From contig JAUXPJ010000013.1 of assembly GCA_030683815.1 (NCBI GenBank), positions 1 through 64,000 of the forward strand: a stretch of 64,000 nucleotides of DNA, in the 5' to 3' direction. The position numbers and the translations under genes were made by a program. Below the pieces are notes generated by a model. The model was not told where the DNA came from. It searched no databases and saw nothing but the letters and a program-made list of their open reading frames with translations. The stretch is from Flavobacteriaceae bacterium. GTDB taxonomy: Bacteria; Bacteroidota; Bacteroidia; Flavobacteriales; Flavobacteriaceae. Below, piece after piece: positions 780 to 6,205 of the stretch (position 1 is the first letter of the stretch; each line of letters begins with the position of its first letter).

Positions 780-977
780 TTTATGATTTTTTAATTTAAC
801 AAAGTTACAAATTAATCAGCAAAATTATGGGCAATAATCATCAATTGATATGTTATACCGATAGTTAAATTCTATCAATACGCAAAAATATTTTACCTTT
901 AATACAACCATTTCATCACTTTATGCGTCTATGTAAATAGAAGTCGGATTGAAATTTAAAAAATCGATTAAAAATTC

Positions 978-1538
978 ATGAAAATTATCAACTTGTATCA
1001 AGACGAAAAAGAATTCATCCGATTGGCCGTTGCACAAAACCGACAGGCGCAACAGCAAATTTATCTGAAATATTCGGCTAAAATGTTGAGTGTTTGCAGG
1101 CAATATATCAAAGATATTCATGAAGCAGAAGATGTTTTATTGATGGCATTTCTCAAAGTTTTTACCCATTTAAAATCTTATGAACATGCCGGAAGTTTTG
1201 AAGGTTGGATTCGAAAAATCATTATCAATGAGTGTATTTCATTTATCAGAAGTAAGAAAAAAATAACTTATTTAGACGATGAATTTTATATGGAAGAACC
1301 ACTTATTGCTACTGAAAGTGAACTTAGCACAGATGAAATTCAACTATTAATTGATGGATTGCCAGATGGTTACAGAATGGTTTTTAATCTTTATGTGATG
1401 GATGGATATAAACATCAAGAAATTGCTTCGATGTTGGGTATTGCTGAAGGCACTTCAAAATCGCAATTGTCACACGCCAGAAAATTGTTGCAAGAACGAA
1501 TTATAAACTCAAAAAAATACAGTTATGAACTGGAATAA
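978..1538 (+). CDS. RNA polymerase sigma factor, ECF (sigma-70 family)
   Basis: A 186-residue ECF-type sigma factor. Region 2 (about residues 20-90) carries the core-binding and -10 recognition helices, including an EDVLLMAFLKVF segment. Region 4 (about 125-178) holds the helix-turn-helix, with Tyr-Lys-His-Gln-Glu-Ile-Ala followed by Leu-Gly-Ile and Lys-Ser-Gln-Leu-Ser-His-Ala-Arg. Only regions 2 and 4 are present, as expected for ECF factors. Its last 14 bases overlap the start of the next gene, a single-pass membrane protein, the usual arrangement of sigma factor and cognate anti-sigma factor. It probably redirects RNA polymerase to envelope genes, perhaps those just downstream; the inducing signal cannot be read from sequence. 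Confidence 0.9.
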   Translation: MKIINLYQDEKEFIRLAVAQNRQAQQQIYLKYSAKMLSVCRQYIKDIHEAEDVLLMAFLKVFTHLKSYEHAGSFEGWIRKIIINECISFIRSKKKITYLDDEFYMEEPLIATESELSTDEIQLLIDGLPDGYRMVFNLYVMDGYKHQEIASMLGIAEGTSKSQLSHARKLLQERIINSKKYSYELE

Positions 1539-2223
1539 TTTAGAAAAGAACTTTAAAAACAAAATGCATGAACGAAGCATTTTACCTGCTGATGATAGCT
1601 GGAATAAACTGGATAAAATGCTTACATCCGCAGAAAAAAGCAAGCCGAAACGGCTGTTTTTCTGGTGGTCAGTTGCGGCCTCTATGACCGGAATTGCATT
1701 CATCGGAATTTATATGATGACTCAAAATTCATCCCAAGAAAATAACAAATCTTTGTTGGTAGTGCAAGAAAAAGCAGTGCAAAAAGACAGCGCAAAAACT
1801 GTTGATAAATCAGAAAAAGAAATGATTATCAATCCGATAAACAACTTGCAACCACCCACAAAATTGGCTGAAATCAATCAAAAAAAACCACCAAAAAACA
1901 ATCGAGGAACAACAGTTCAAATTGATAATCAACAAAAAAATAATTTACAAAACGAAACTTTATTAACTGAGAATAATGCCCCTGAAAATTCATCAAAGCC
2001 ATATGAAAAATTAACAATTAATACGCAAGAATTGCTTACTTCTGTTGAAAATAAGGAAGATATTATCCTCAAAAACGATCCAATAAAAGTGAACGCAACT
2101 AGTTTGCTTTCGCAAGTAGATGGCGAATTATCACAAACTTTTACAGAAAAAGCGCTGCAATCACTCCATAAAAATTATAAAAATATCAAAGAAGTTATTG
2201 TTTCTAGGAACATTAAAGAATAA
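1525..2223 (+). CDS. Single-pass membrane protein, putative anti-sigma factor
   Basis: A 232-residue protein whose ATG lies inside the sigma-factor gene (14-base overlap), implying translational coupling. The first 43 residues are cytosolic, charged and helical. A single membrane segment follows at about 44-65, and the rest is a long periplasmic part rich in Asn, Gln, Lys and Glu. It lacks the HxxxCxxC zinc motif of ZAS anti-sigma factors. The topology (short cytosolic N-terminus, one helix, periplasmic sensor) and the coupling suggest it sequesters the upstream ECF factor; I see no direct family motif, so the role is inferred. A GC-rich hairpin follows the stop codon. Confidence 0.6.
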   Translation: MNWNNLEKNFKNKMHERSILPADDSWNKLDKMLTSAEKSKPKRLFFWWSVAASMTGIAFIGIYMMTQNSSQENNKSLLVVQEKAVQKDSAKTVDKSEKEMIINPINNLQPPTKLAEINQKKPPKNNRGTTVQIDNQQKNNLQNETLLTENNAPENSSKPYEKLTINTQELLTSVENKEDIILKNDPIKVNATSLLSQVDGELSQTFTEKALQSLHKNYKNIKEVIVSRNIKE

Positions 2224-2235
2224 TGACCAGACTTA

Positions 2236-2255
2236 CCCCTCGACTCCGCTCGGGG
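2236..2255. repeat. GC-rich palindromic hairpin, REP-like
   Basis: A 20-base element with CCCC and GGGG arms around a TCGACTCCGCTC core stands out in AT-rich intergenic DNA 13 bp after the anti-sigma stop. The TCGAC-TnCGCTCG core resembles the repeat pair at 7991-8048, so it may belong to one dispersed family. It could end transcription of the sigma/anti-sigma unit, although no T-run follows directly. Confidence 0.5.
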
Positions 2256-2376
2256 TTCCAATATAGATAAAAGACTGTTATGTTAGAAATCAATAATTTA
2301 TCACATTTTCTTTTCTCTATATATAAAGGTCGAATTAATAAATTAAAACAAAACAATCAATTCAAAATCAAGTACT

Positions 2377-3495
2377 ATGAGAAATCTATTTTTAAACCTA
2401 CTGCTTTTTATATTGCTATTTTCAACGCAATTAACAGCCCAAGAAACCTTTGAAACCAAAGCAAAAGCTATTGCCGATAAAATTGAAAAAATAACCAGAG
2501 AAGAAAAAAATACCTTAAAAAAAGAGATTGAAGAAGTCAATATTCAACTTGAAAACAAGCAGCTTACCAAAGAACAAGCCGATGCAAAAAAACAAGAATT
2601 GGCGCAATCACGAGCAATGATTATTGAAACCAAAATTGCTGAAGTACAAAAAGAACTCAAACAACTTGTGCAAGAAAAAGTGGATGGGAAAATTTCAGAA
2701 AATTCAAGTAAAATAGAATTTTATGAAATAGACTTAGGTAAAAAACTCGTTTTAAAAATGGAAGAAAGTGATAATAACCAACATAAATCAGCTAAAAACA
2801 AGTTGACTTTAAGTGTAAAAAATGATAGTATCAAGAAAAAAAGAAAAACATATCAAGAAAAAAGAACCACTACACAATTTGTGTTTGCTGTAGGACTAAA
2901 CGACCTTATAACCGATGGTAATATTGAAGATTCAGATTTTGAACGAATTGGCTCTCGCTTTTACGAATGGGGCGCTACCTACAAAACCCGGTTGTTTAAA
3001 AATGACAATTTACTGCATTTAAAATACGGATTTTCAGTGATGTACAACAATCTTCGTCCAAAAGACAATGACTATTTTGTAAAAAATGGTGAGCAAACTA
3101 ATTTAGCAGTTCATCCCAACCAATTAAAAGATGTGCGTTTTAAAAATGTGTATTTGGCAGCGCCTTTGCACTTAGAATTTGATTTTTCGGGCAATCAGTC
3201 GAGATATGGAAATAAGAAGTTCAGAACACAAGAAAGCGTCCGTTTGGGTGTTGGTGGCTATGCGGGTGTTCATCTAAAAACAAAACAAATGCTTCGTTAT
3301 GAGGTTGATAATCTTGAAATTCGTCAAAAAATAAAAGGCGATTATAATGCCAATGATTTTATTTACGGTTTAAGCTCTTATATCGGCTATAAAGACACCA
3401 GTTTATACTTGAAATATGATTTGAATCCGATGTTTGACAACAATTCCATCAAGCAACAAAATGTTTCATTGGGGATTAGATTTGATTGGAATTAA
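2377..3495 (+). CDS. Secreted coiled-coil / beta-barrel outer-membrane protein
   Basis: A 372-residue exported protein. Residues 1-21 are a signal peptide ending Leu-Thr-Ala-Gln. Residues about 22-110 form a highly charged Lys/Glu/Gln helical stretch with heptad character, a likely coiled coil. From about residue 160 the sequence alternates aromatic and polar strands (for example FVFAVGLNDL) and ends Leu-Gly-Ile-Arg-Phe-Asp-Trp-Asn, typical of an outer-membrane beta-barrel. A periplasmic helical arm fused to a barrel could touch peptidoglycan or the periplasmic sensor encoded upstream. It lies 153 bp downstream of the putative anti-sigma gene and may be a target or part of that regulon. I do not recognise a named family. 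Confidence 0.6.
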   Translation: MRNLFLNLLLFILLFSTQLTAQETFETKAKAIADKIEKITREEKNTLKKEIEEVNIQLENKQLTKEQADAKKQELAQSRAMIIETKIAEVQKELKQLVQEKVDGKISENSSKIEFYEIDLGKKLVLKMEESDNNQHKSAKNKLTLSVKNDSIKKKRKTYQEKRTTTQFVFAVGLNDLITDGNIEDSDFERIGSRFYEWGATYKTRLFKNDNLLHLKYGFSVMYNNLRPKDNDYFVKNGEQTNLAVHPNQLKDVRFKNVYLAAPLHLEFDFSGNQSRYGNKKFRTQESVRLGVGGYAGVHLKTKQMLRYEVDNLEIRQKIKGDYNANDFIYGLSSYIGYKDTSLYLKYDLNPMFDNNSIKQQNVSLGIRFDWN

Positions 3496-3742: not shown

Positions 3743-6205
3743 ATGTACAAAATCTTTACGCTCTTATTTTTATATCTCTTTTCATCTCAAATCAACGCAC
3801 AAATTATAGGAACTGTTACCAATACACAAAATATTCCGTTGCCGTATGTGAGTGTTTATTTTGAAAACACCTCTATCGGAACTTCAACCAACCAAGAAGG
3901 TATTTACGAATTTTCGGTGCATAAAAAAGGAAGACATATGCTCGTTTTTCAATATTTGGGTTTTAAAACCATCAAAAAAGAAATTGAAATCAGCACTTTT
4001 CCGTATGTGTTAAATGTGAGTTTAAGCGAAGAAAACATCCAATTAAATGAAGTTACCATCAATTCAAAAGAAAATCCGGCGCATCGCATCATCCGAAAAA
4101 CCATCGAAAACAGAAAAAATCATCTGTCAAAAATTAAAGCATACACCAGCGATTTTTATTCTAAAGGAATTTTCAGAATTAAAAACGCACCGGAAAAAAT
4201 ATTGGGACGAAAATTGGGCGATTTTGGCGGCGGATTAGACTCAACTCGAAGTGGTGTTATTTATCTTTCAGAAACCGTTTCCAACATCAGTTTTCAGCAA
4301 CCCAATTTGTTTAAAGAACACATCATCGCTTCAAAAGTGAGTGGCAGAGACAACGGTTTCAGTTTTAATCAGGCATCCGAAGTTAATTTTAATTTTTATG
4401 AAAATACGATTGAATTTGGCAACAAAGTAATTTCGCCCATTGCAACTTATGCCTTCAATTACTACAACTATAAATTAGAAGGAACTTTTTATGAGGGAAA
4501 TCATCTGATCAATAAAATTTTAGTCAGTCCGAAGTTAAAAACAGACAACGCTTTTACCGGAACACTGTATATTGTAGAGGATGATTGGGCTATTTACGGA
4601 CTCAATTTGAATGTTTCCGGTCCTCAGATGGGATTGCCCATGGTCGATAATCTCAACTTAAAACAAACTTATGCTTATCATGAAAGTAAGGATTATTGGG
4701 CTGTTATTTCGCAATTAATCGACTTTAAATTTGGAATGTTTGGCATCAATGTCGATGGTCAGTTTACGGCGACGTACAATAATTACAACTTTAATCCGGC
4801 ATTTAAACCCAAAGAATTTACCAAAGAAGTACTTTCATTTGCCGATAATTCCAATAAAAAAGATTCCGTTTTTTGGAGTACTTCAAGACCTGTTATTCTC
4901 ACCTCCGAAGAAATAACGGATTACAAAAAAAAGGACAGCATCCAAATTATTAAAAAATCTAAAACTTATTTAGATTCCATTGATGATAAAAACAATAAAT
5001 TTAAATTTTCAAATCTTGTTTTTGGATATACTTATAGAAATTCTTTCAAAGATTATACACTAAGATTTACGTCGGCAATTGCAAAAACAGGGTTTAATAC
5101 CGTGCAAGGATTTAATCCTTCTATGGATATTTCTTTTTCTAAAAATGATGAAGAAAAAGCCAGTCGTTTTTACGCAATTACAAAATTTAATTATGGATTT
5201 TCAGATGAAAAGTTTCGGATGAACGGAACAGTCAATTATTTATTTAACAGTATTTCAAAACCGTATTTGGAGATTTCCGGCGGACAAAAAATTACGCAGT
5301 TTAATGAAAATGAACCCATTTCACCCTTACAAAACACTTTTAACACCTTAGCTTTTGAAAATAATTTTGCCAAATTTTACGACAAAACTTTTGCCAGTAT
5401 TCATTTTTCTGAGGAAATATGGAATGGTTTCAGAATGGGAGGAACTTTTGGTTTTGAAGAACGTCTGCCTCTTTTAAATACCACTAATTATGTGATGTTT
5501 AACAACAAAAATAAAATTTATACTTCTAATGATCCGCAAAACCCGAGCAATTATCTGACGCATTCATTTGATAAACATCAGGTTTTTACCTTCGTTGCCA
5601 ATGCCCGAATCCGATTTGGACAAAGATACATCTCACATCCCAACCGAAAATTTGATATCACAACTACTGATTATCCGACTATTTCATTGCATTTTAGTCA
5701 AAATTTTGCAGCGAGTCAAAACAAATATAACTTTTCAGAAATTTCAACCCGCATACAGCAGAAGATTGACTTTGGCAATAAAGGTAATTTTAGTTTTAAT
5801 GCCATCGCCGGTACATTTTTTAACGGCTCTGAAATTTCTTTTGTTGATTTTAAACATTTTAATGGAAATCGAACTTTATTTGTTGCACCAAATATCGCAT
5901 CCAATTCCTTTAAGCTAATGCCTTATTACAGTTTTAGCACCAATAAATCGTATGCTGAATTTCATGCAGAACATCAATTTAACAACTATATTTTAGGTAA
6001 AATTCCGTTGATCAACCAATTGGGGCTTGAATTAATTATGGGTTCCAATGTGCTAATTACCAAAGAAAATAAGCCCTATTCTGAGGTTTCTATCGGATTG
6101 GATAAAATTGGATTTGGAAAATACCGACTGTTAAGAATCGATTATGTTAAATCGTTTCACAATGGAAATATTAAAAATGGCGTTGTTTTGGGGATTAAAT
6201 TTTAA
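3743..6205 (+). CDS. DUF5686 outer-membrane protein with carboxypeptidase-like regulatory domain
   Basis: An 820-residue exported protein. Residues 1-19 are a signal peptide (ends Ile-Asn-Ala-Gln). Residues about 21-107 form a CarboxypepD_reg-like beta-sandwich, as in the N-termini of SusC/TonB-dependent proteins. From about 110 onward the sequence fits DUF5686: a soluble part with RIIRKTIENR and LGRKLGDFGGG, then a long series of beta-strands ending in a C-terminal Phe, typical of a barrel. No TonB-plug domain is visible, so it is not a standard TonB-dependent transporter. The function of DUF5686 is unknown; a structural or assembly role at the outer membrane is inferred. It is a single-gene unit convergent with the rhodanese gene. 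Confidence 0.85.
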   Translation: MYKIFTLLFLYLFSSQINAQIIGTVTNTQNIPLPYVSVYFENTSIGTSTNQEGIYEFSVHKKGRHMLVFQYLGFKTIKKEIEISTFPYVLNVSLSEENIQLNEVTINSKENPAHRIIRKTIENRKNHLSKIKAYTSDFYSKGIFRIKNAPEKILGRKLGDFGGGLDSTRSGVIYLSETVSNISFQQPNLFKEHIIASKVSGRDNGFSFNQASEVNFNFYENTIEFGNKVISPIATYAFNYYNYKLEGTFYEGNHLINKILVSPKLKTDNAFTGTLYIVEDDWAIYGLNLNVSGPQMGLPMVDNLNLKQTYAYHESKDYWAVISQLIDFKFGMFGINVDGQFTATYNNYNFNPAFKPKEFTKEVLSFADNSNKKDSVFWSTSRPVILTSEEITDYKKKDSIQIIKKSKTYLDSIDDKNNKFKFSNLVFGYTYRNSFKDYTLRFTSAIAKTGFNTVQGFNPSMDISFSKNDEEKASRFYAITKFNYGFSDEKFRMNGTVNYLFNSISKPYLEISGGQKITQFNENEPISPLQNTFNTLAFENNFAKFYDKTFASIHFSEEIWNGFRMGGTFGFEERLPLLNTTNYVMFNNKNKIYTSNDPQNPSNYLTHSFDKHQVFTFVANARIRFGQRYISHPNRKFDITTTDYPTISLHFSQNFAASQNKYNFSEISTRIQQKIDFGNKGNFSFNAIAGTFFNGSEISFVDFKHFNGNRTLFVAPNIASNSFKLMPYYSFSTNKSYAEFHAEHQFNNYILGKIPLINQLGLELIMGSNVLITKENKPYSEVSIGLDKIGFGKYRLLRIDYVKSFHNGNIKNGVVLGIKF

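Follow-up and report, generated by a model that had tools for sequence, protein, structure and literature searches.

Three adjacent genes near the start of the 64,000-nucleotide stretch of Flavobacteriaceae DNA analysed here (the window) encode an ECF sigma factor, a candidate membrane anti-sigma protein and an outer-membrane protein (OMP), and are best read, from sequence comparison, as a split, two-protein counterpart of the dual membrane-spanning anti-sigma (Dma) factors. That the operon acts as a self-contained trans-envelope switch, in which a docked hairpin of the OMP would hold the anti-sigma in a sigma-binding state, is a reading to which we give about even chances.

The three-gene cassette and its promoter

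The operon and its immediate surroundings comprise the following features.

903..942, + strand: ECF-type autoregulatory promoter, TACAACC, with AACC at 906-909 (-35), CGTC at 926-929 (-10) and a 16-nt spacer, then TATGTAAATAGAA
978..1538, + strand: ECF sigma factor gene, 186 aa, regions 2 and 4 (PF04542 and PF08281)
1525..2223, + strand: membrane anti-sigma candidate gene, 232 aa, with predicted helices 4-16, 25-38, 46-69 and 191-230 and a predicted disordered middle
2377..3495, + strand: OMP gene, 372 aa, without Pfam family match
3743..6205, + strand: possible associated gene, DUF5686/CarboxypepD_reg outer-membrane protein, 820 aa (PF18939)

All three cassette genes lie on one strand, and the first-pass annotation of a sigma gene overlapping that of a single-pass protein holds as to coordinates and overlap (14 nt). 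The 186-aa protein has the ECF composition, regions 2 and 4 without region 3: in Pfam, PF04542 (44.7 bits) and PF08281 (58 bits) are both over cut-off and the region 3 family is absent. In NCBIfam the general ECF superfamily is above cut-off, and TIGR02985 (Bacteroidota) and NF058625 are below theirs. The PDB sequence match of the sigma factor is SigW chain 5wuq (E 1.2e-14).

Relatives of the OMP are present in 298 of 395 Flavobacteriaceae genomes. Sigma, anti-sigma and OMP genes are consecutive at 34 of the 38 loci of a first sample (33 genomes, window included); beside the OMP relative at the remaining four (G002, G025, G048, G052) neither sigma nor anti-sigma is recognised. The order recurs at 77 of 80 loci in a second sample, where the three exceptions are fetched stretches that start too late. 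In a third, a single-pass anti-sigma gene lies directly upstream of the OMP in all 116 fetched cases, with a sigma factor recognised in 110. The linkage, whose absence from other genomes had been set beforehand as one of the refuting results, is thus kept in each sample, and it exceeds chance. The commonest arrangement of the first two genes is the exact 14-nt overlap (20/34, 65/77 and 92/110 loci, respectively). Between the anti-sigma and OMP genes lies a GC-rich repeat (2238-2254) that the window contains once; folding of the region around it is not superior to that of shuffled sequences.

The operon is preceded by a conserved promoter, AACC-N16-CGTC, at 906-929. A loose form of the motif is present in 28 of 34 sigma upstreams in the first sample, against a shuffle mean of 1.21 and maximum of 6 (200 rounds), with a spacer of 16 nt in 24 copies and 15 nt in four. 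It is likewise present in 74 of 76 upstreams of the second sample and 96 of 109 of the third, where the spacer is 16 nt in all 96. The exact 28-base pattern matches once in its own genome, at this operon, so the conserved output appears to be the operon itself. Over 60 genomes, the window's own included, it matches 46 times, 23 of these at cassettes; the reversed-pattern control columns total 40, and a wrong spacer of 17 gives 13 matches in one search and five in another. The motif is not in excess outside cassettes. By comparison, the SM6 ECF-type motif of Flavobacterium psychrophilum precedes many genes, type IX secretion genes included (PMC9723704), whereas the cassette motif is found almost exclusively at the operon it serves.

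Good copies of the promoter beyond the operon are few and lineage-specific. They precede DUF5686 OMPs (G032, G008), an S41 peptidase (G018), a protease-like protein (G021), a CarboxypepD_reg-like protein (G029) and an RND-type efflux operon (G012); the S41 assignment and that of DUF5686 (tested in G032) are from Pfam, G008 is assigned via similarity and the others by eye. The 820-aa DUF5686 gene of the window is outside the conserved cassette: at E 1e-8 it has no match in the 40 other neighbourhoods searched. Its orthologues in G008 and G032 bear a cassette-type promoter. A site is present in just two of the 15 DUF5686 matches examined, a total that counts the window's own gene, thus DUF5686 is not a conserved target.

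The two envelope proteins and their fused relatives

Within the anti-sigma candidate and the OMP the following segments can be distinguished, the arm and barrel being predicted from structure models.

1525..1659, + strand: N-terminal cytoplasmic domain of the anti-sigma candidate, residues 1-45 (PxxxxW...L), common to fused Dma-like proteins (antiN profile)
1660..1725, + strand: single transmembrane helix, residues 46-67 (hydropathy, structure prediction)
2092..2211, + strand: conserved periplasmic C-terminal helix (tail), residues 190-229 (conservation, predicted helix 191-230, covariation with the OMP arm)
2449..2682, + strand: predicted periplasmic antiparallel helical hairpin (arm), OMP residues 25-102 (predicted helices 25-59 and 65-102, covarying pairs)
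2857..3492, + strand: predicted 8-stranded OmpA/NspA-like barrel, OMP residues 161-372 (pLDDT blocks of 89-98 from OMP 167 on)

The 232-aa protein has one transmembrane segment (hydropathy peak 44-62, predicted helix 46-69), separated from its tail by a tether, some 100 residues long and disordered (pLDDT <50 over most of 78-162). Zinc-binding anti-sigma (ZAS) proteins carry the motif HxxxCxxC. The 232-aa sequence contains no cysteine and therefore lacks the motif, as had been noted at first reading, and a zinc anti-sigma identity is ruled out. Its anti-sigma role, earlier proposed from the layout, is upheld by comparison: at all 20 paralogous loci the antiN profile (residues 1-65, transmembrane helix included) matches the protein encoded downstream of the ECF sigma gene, with 16.8-35 bits, which points to an anti-sigma. 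The protein could instead be an inner-membrane helper for OMP assembly, since it matches no Pfam family and no characterised family in Pfam or NCBIfam; the placement of its N-terminal domain after an ECF sigma gene at all 20 paralogous loci and the prevalent 14-nt overlap with sigma make this very improbable.

The 372-aa OMP was predicted at first reading to be secreted and to combine a helical arm with a C-terminal barrel, and all three elements are found. It begins with a signal-peptide-like start, judged by eye (MRNLFLNLLLFILLFSTQLTAQ). The arm, previously put at roughly 90 residues, is indeed predicted to be helical; the model shows a hairpin whose two helices span about 78 residues, with pLDDT of 87-96 in ten-residue blocks over OMP 27-106 and covarying pairs 33-98, 50-79, 25-102 and 58-68 within the hairpin. 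No relative of the OMP came up when the PDB was searched by sequence. Comparison of structures by VIA-align, well tested for the barrel (model residues 444-656; model numbering minus 284 gives OMP numbering), aligns 149 residues of model 445-656 with NspA 1p4t (Z 14.2, rmsd 3.0), and OmpA entries score Z 8.7-13.6. The barrel is thus predicted to have the 8-stranded OmpA/NspA-type fold, a likeness of fold only, at 10-13% identity. OmpA-type proteins carry a C-terminal peptidoglycan-binding domain, in place of which the OMP has its N-terminal helical hairpin. The OMP is 528-536 aa long at 12 of 77 loci of the second sample, and each of five such long forms read has an extra N-terminal domain.

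The recently described Dma factors, exemplified by Bacteroides thetaiotaomicron, are single chains (PMC13088901). They share with the cassette an anti-sigma domain, one transmembrane helix, a long disordered tether, an outer-membrane barrel and an adjacent ECF sigma factor, all in Bacteroidota; for the N-terminal domain, this rests on the relatives' fused proteins (20/20) rather than on Bacteroides Dma sequences. A further mark of Dma is a cognate sigma factor of group ECF21; for the cassette sigma, NCBIfam supports the general ECF superfamily. A Dma chain itself ends in the barrel, whereas in the cassette the barrel is a separate gene product with its own signal peptide and hairpin, and the anti-sigma, unlike Dma, terminates in a conserved helix. 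The 232-aa protein therefore falls outside Dma, although it may operate in a similar way. The first-pass statement that no named system has this layout stands in part: the one-polypeptide version is named (PMC13088901) and the logic is that of cell-surface signalling, and no description of the split form was found in the open-licence papers searched.

Fused and split forms can be compared directly. At 17 of the 20 paralogous sigma loci the antiN domain heads a single chain of 401-611 aa with a transmembrane helix and barrel-like C-terminus. None of the 20 proteins exceeds 1.4 bits with the tail profile or 2.3 bits with the arm profile; tail and arm thus occur only where the joint would be non-covalent. 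The fused paralogues fetched also fail to match the cassette barrel profile. This tells against simple fission of a Dma protein and makes exchange or recruitment of the barrel the more probable origin; a remote relation is possible.

In the available part of the report on a related pair in Phocaeicola vulgatus (M0N98_03761/03760), the anti-sigma is predicted to reach across the periplasm as far as a barrel in the outer membrane. Its proposed signal is envelope stress, and the sigma gene itself is strongly induced, 33-fold (PMC9308784); in these respects it resembles the proposed cassette. It differs in being a single chain, no separate OMP being described in that part; activation leads to longer O-antigen, and NigD orthologues go up under toxin treatment (PMC9308784).

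Neither the 232-aa nor the 372-aa protein matches a FecR-type anti-sigma or a TonB-dependent receptor with plug in Pfam or NCBIfam. In FecA-FecR-FecI signalling, the N-terminal periplasmic domain of an outer-membrane barrel acts on the C-terminal periplasmic part of the anti-sigma, which controls the ECF sigma factor. The cassette shares this outer-membrane-protein-to-anti-sigma logic; it differs in lacking the FecR domain and the TonB-dependent receptor or plug, in its 8-stranded barrel and in an output that is essentially the operon alone. A FecR-type identity is ruled out on Pfam and sequence grounds. A looser version, in which an external ligand, once bound by the OMP, makes the hairpin either activate the anti-sigma or set off its cleavage and so release sigma, would retain the three-part logic of FecI/FecR/FecA and could make a sensor of the extra domain of the long OMPs. 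We consider it quite improbable: FecR, TonB-plug and STN families are missing from the Pfam results, eight strands make a small barrel for a receptor, and the conserved output includes no uptake or degradation gene.

Possible contact between arm and tail

Docking of the OMP hairpin on the anti-sigma tail, a narrower form of the contact between arm and anti-sigma proposed at first reading, is only suggested. Whole-length covariation on 128 sets is too noisy. Between anti-sigma and OMP the tail covaries best with the arm; the top pair, an199-om54, reaches z 7.96 against a maximum of 7.25 among 181 tree-simulated sets, and the remaining tail-arm pairs all fall inside the tree null. In simulations of raw values the top value is reached in 1 of 60 and the fourth in 25 of 60. 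The top pair rests on three joint changes among five at an199, which are found in the window's genus and in a set of 80 mostly Flavobacterium loci. The pair leaves the top tail-arm pairs both without these 80 loci, when an198-om51, made up of residues neighbouring those of the top pair, leads, and with them alone, when an172-om31 leads and even hairpin pairs are not recovered. As a control, sigma-arm raw covariation reaches 6.2 sd; the sigma-anti-sigma pair sg29-an25 has a raw value of 10.6 sd, and sg29 scores with the arm too.

Other lines are similarly mixed. In an AlphaFold read-through construct tail confidence rises at 181-200 (57, 65 to 65, 82) and falls at 201-230 (69, 82, 75 to 54, 64, 54). 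Arm and tail scores move together (row L484 left out), with arm at least 43.9 and tail at least 25.5 bits in 25 loci, and arm at most 33.3 and tail at most 6.4 bits in nine; this is confounded with divergence, the partial rank correlation being 0.46 vs 0.57 for tail-barrel and 0.53 for anti-N-arm.

The weak covariation and the lack of clear docking in the AlphaFold models are also what would be expected if the OMP were mere output, a co-transcribed cargo never touching an anti-sigma that senses the periplasm alone, e.g. by regulated proteolysis of the tether; the promoter, which heads the operon and makes the OMP the conserved target, favours this reading too. Yet a cargo barrel would have no need of a conserved periplasmic hairpin, the anti-sigma has a conserved end helix far from the membrane, and its N-terminal domain is linked in the fused paralogues to a C-terminus that resembles a barrel. 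We regard this explanation as rather unlikely.

Proposed mechanism and its meaning

In the switch that we favour, the N-terminal domain of the anti-sigma would keep the ECF sigma factor at the inner membrane, as its shared occurrence beside sigma genes suggests, and its transmembrane helix would lead through the disordered periplasmic tether to the conserved terminal helix. The OMP would sit in the outer membrane with its predicted hairpin projecting into the periplasm and docking on that helix, a non-covalent inner-to-outer-membrane bridge like the one that Dma forms within a single polypeptide. As long as a properly assembled OMP is in its docked position, the anti-sigma would remain in its sigma-holding state; failure of docking, through OMP misassembly or outer-membrane damage, would free sigma to transcribe its own operon and restore both OMP and anti-sigma. 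Protection by an outer-membrane partner has a precedent (PMC11637429). As the contact would involve two short predicted segments and the promoter is sharply defined and essentially single-copy, the mechanism, including the signal perceived and whether docking switches sigma on or off, is directly testable.

More broadly, and more tentatively, most Flavobacteriaceae may possess a two-protein membrane bridge, held by a helical bundle of the last anti-sigma helix and the OMP hairpin, that serves as a self-resetting gauge of OMP assembly or inter-membrane distance, with the operon as only conserved target and with fused and split sensors coexisting in single genomes. If so, the split form, which occurs in roughly three of every four genomes sampled from the family, would make trans-envelope sigma control general in Bacteroidota, and its outer-membrane half would be modular and swappable.

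Conservation of the sigma, anti-sigma and OMP cassette

The window represents the first 64 kb of a 76.9 kb contig in a 2.5 Mb genome. The three genes grouped by the first-pass annotation are consecutive in it, and their order is kept across relatives.

978-1538, + strand: ECF sigma factor gene, first of three consecutive genes
1525-2223, + strand: gene for a 232-aa single-pass protein (candidate anti-sigma), overlapping the sigma gene by 14 nt
2377-3495, + strand: gene for a 372-aa secreted protein (outer-membrane protein, OMP), third of three consecutive genes

Among the three proteins only the sigma factor gives Pfam/NCBIfam matches above cut-off, and the 232-aa sequence contains no cysteine. 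The anti-sigma tether ends in a conserved helix (the tail, residues 190-229) and the N-terminal part of the OMP is a conserved hairpin (the arm). The OMP was modelled within a read-through construct (OMP residue = model residue minus 284; whole model mean pLDDT 69.9, pTM 0.45), where helices 25-59 and 65-102 form the hairpin, followed by a poorly ordered linker and a predicted barrel at approximately 161-372. The best structural alignments of the modelled barrel are to 8-stranded OmpA/NspA-type barrels (NspA: Z 14.2, rmsd 3.0, 149 residues). A GC-rich short inverted repeat, one copy in the window, lies between the anti-sigma and OMP genes at 2238-2254; its region folds no better than shuffles.

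Across 60 genomes, the window's own included, matches to the three cassette proteins adjoin each other. Within fetched neighbourhoods an OMP relative occurs at 38 loci; 34 of these (33 genomes) keep the order sigma, anti-sigma, OMP, and at the other four no sigma or anti-sigma is recognised. OMP relatives with no adjacent recognised sigma occur at L111, L128, L129, L130, and L133, including a tandem 243-aa pair in genome G025, and genome G026 carries a second OMP copy beside the cassette. Named genomes yielded at least 482 relatives, of which 80, mostly Flavobacterium, were kept; 77 of these loci hold the complete cassette and three are cut short. In the family-wide sample (genomes at least 90% complete, family taken as Flavobacteriaceae), 298 of 395 genomes carry the OMP, covering 166 of 203 genera. 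At 116 loci from the top of that list, the anti-sigma is directly upstream of the OMP in all 116 and a sigma is recognised in 110. All these samples share taxa, so none is independent of the others.

Phylum-wide, matches were found in 44 of 247 genomes, every one in the same class, and those outside the order are mostly to the barrel part. At L488 and L489, which belong to a different family of that class, the three genes are again consecutive, with a differing OMP N-terminus. A record titled Sphingobacterium thalpophilum (L275) holds a Flavobacterium-type cassette, its OMP 53% identical in the best segment; this MAG may be mislabelled. The OMP is 528-536 aa long in 12 of the 77 loci (L267, L274, L281, L282, L288, L305, L307, L309, L310, L311, L314, and L315). 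In L267, L274, L281, L282, and L311 an extra N-terminal domain of ~170 residues, with WAGLWMRxDYY inside, stands ahead of the helical arm; the one such OMP tested gave no Pfam match above cut-off.

The cassette promoter and its output

Three features flank the cassette in the window.

504-779, - strand: CopZ-like gene with a heavy-metal-associated domain, oriented divergently to the cassette; unmatched in the 40 other neighbourhoods searched
903-942: cassette promoter, upstream of the sigma gene
3743-6205, + strand: DUF5686 outer-membrane gene, 3' of the cassette

The site upstream of the sigma gene reads AGGCAACCwTT-N-GCGTCTwTa..ATAGAAG. Its loose form is present in 28 of 34 upstream regions, versus 1.21 expected from shuffles, with an AACC-CGTC spacing of 16 nt in 24 of the 28 and 15 nt in the other 4. 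It recurs in 74 of 76 regions of the named-genome set and 96 of 109 of the family-wide fetched set, with a spacer of 16 in 96/96. In the window's genome, the exact 28-base pattern occurs once, at the cassette promoter. Over 60 genomes it has 46 matches, 23 of them at cassettes, while the reversed-pattern control columns sum to 40 by our count. As the non-cassette matches do not exceed this control, the motif is not in excess outside the operon.

Searching with an extended pattern, allowing up to 3 mismatches, gave a handful of further plausible, lineage-specific targets. Two of these are orthologues of the window's DUF5686 gene in two other genera (genomes G008 and G032; upstream regions L216 and L217), situated elsewhere than beside the cassette; the site is absent at the other DUF5686 matches examined. 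The DUF5686 outer-membrane protein is a possible functional partner of the cassette. Promoter copies (L228, L231, and L232) also lie upstream of an S41 peptidase by Pfam assignment (G018) and, with identities read by eye, a possible other protease (G021) and an RND-type efflux operon (G012).

A possible joint between anti-sigma tail and OMP arm

Mean-field coupling analysis of 247 anti-sigma/OMP pairs recovers the OMP hairpin itself (33-98, 50-79, 25-102) in agreement with the structure model, a positive control. The top inter-protein pair, anti-sigma residue 199 with OMP residue 54, ranks first among all pairs of the run at 7.7 sd, versus a maximum of 3.4 in 20 pairing shuffles; controls with the anti-sigma N-terminal part and the sigma reach 4.3 and 6.2 sd. 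When coupling-free alignments are simulated along the inferred tree (238 sets), its raw value is reached in 1 of 60 simulations and its pair-wise normalised z of 7.96 exceeds 7.25, the largest of 181. All remaining inter-protein pairs fall inside this tree null.

The covariation comes from an E/I to D/V exchange: anti-sigma residue 199 changes 5 times, 3 of them jointly with its partner. Of the 44 D/V cases, 41 belong to the 80 named loci and the others are the window and two congeners. Excluding the named loci gives 198-51 as the top inter-protein pair, adjacent to 199-54, an encouraging if post hoc result; in the named loci alone other pairs lead and the hairpin is not recovered. Prediction confidence in the read-through construct, relative to the anti-sigma alone, rises at residues 181-200 and falls at 201-230. 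Loci with a strong tail score also have a strong arm score, and weak scores likewise coincide, a pattern confounded by overall divergence. On these results, docking of the hairpin on the tail is no more than plausible.

The simplest account would be a negative-feedback gauge; signalling of the opposite sign, and an OMP that is output only, are kept as rivals. In the gauge, sigma would stay sequestered by the anti-sigma as long as the OMP is docked; once docking is lost, sigma would be freed and would rebuild the operon. For TonB-dependent transducers, PMC11637429 reports outer-membrane partner binding that can shield an anti-sigma from proteolysis.

Fused and separate layouts

Dual membrane-spanning anti-sigma factors (Dma) are described in PMC13088901 as one chain of N-terminal anti-sigma domain, TM helix, disordered tether, and C-terminal barrel, with an adjacent ECF sigma. 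Twenty paralogous sigma loci, one per genome, were fetched from next-best matches. The cassette's N-terminal domain, whose profile takes in the TM segment, is found in the protein after sigma at 20/20 (16.8-35 bits). In 17 of these the protein is one chain of 401-611 aa that has a hydrophobic segment near residue 42-69 and ends like an OMP; a signature at the C-terminus, together with a single sub-threshold Pfam match, makes this end a putative barrel. The other three (206, 346, and 369 aa) have different ends. Cassette tail, arm, and barrel profiles score at most 2.7 bits in all 20. The fused-type protein was matched in 30 of 60 genomes; the window's genome gave no match, nor did its three congeners.

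Judging from architecture, the cassette and fused proteins may be homologous to Bacteroides Dma. In Dma the barrel is within the anti-sigma chain, whereas the cassette reaches the outer membrane through a second protein. The cluster seen by the first-pass annotation is confirmed, and its reading as an envelope-sensing unit in which the OMP arm talks to the periplasmic part of the anti-sigma is partly supported. The strongest results are how well the cassette is conserved, its near-private promoter, and the comparison of fused with split layouts; physical contact is the weakest link. The sigma-side domain is common to fused and separate layouts, and the outer membrane is therefore wired via one chain or a second protein. 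The cassette is best read as a widespread two-protein variant of the one-chain layout.
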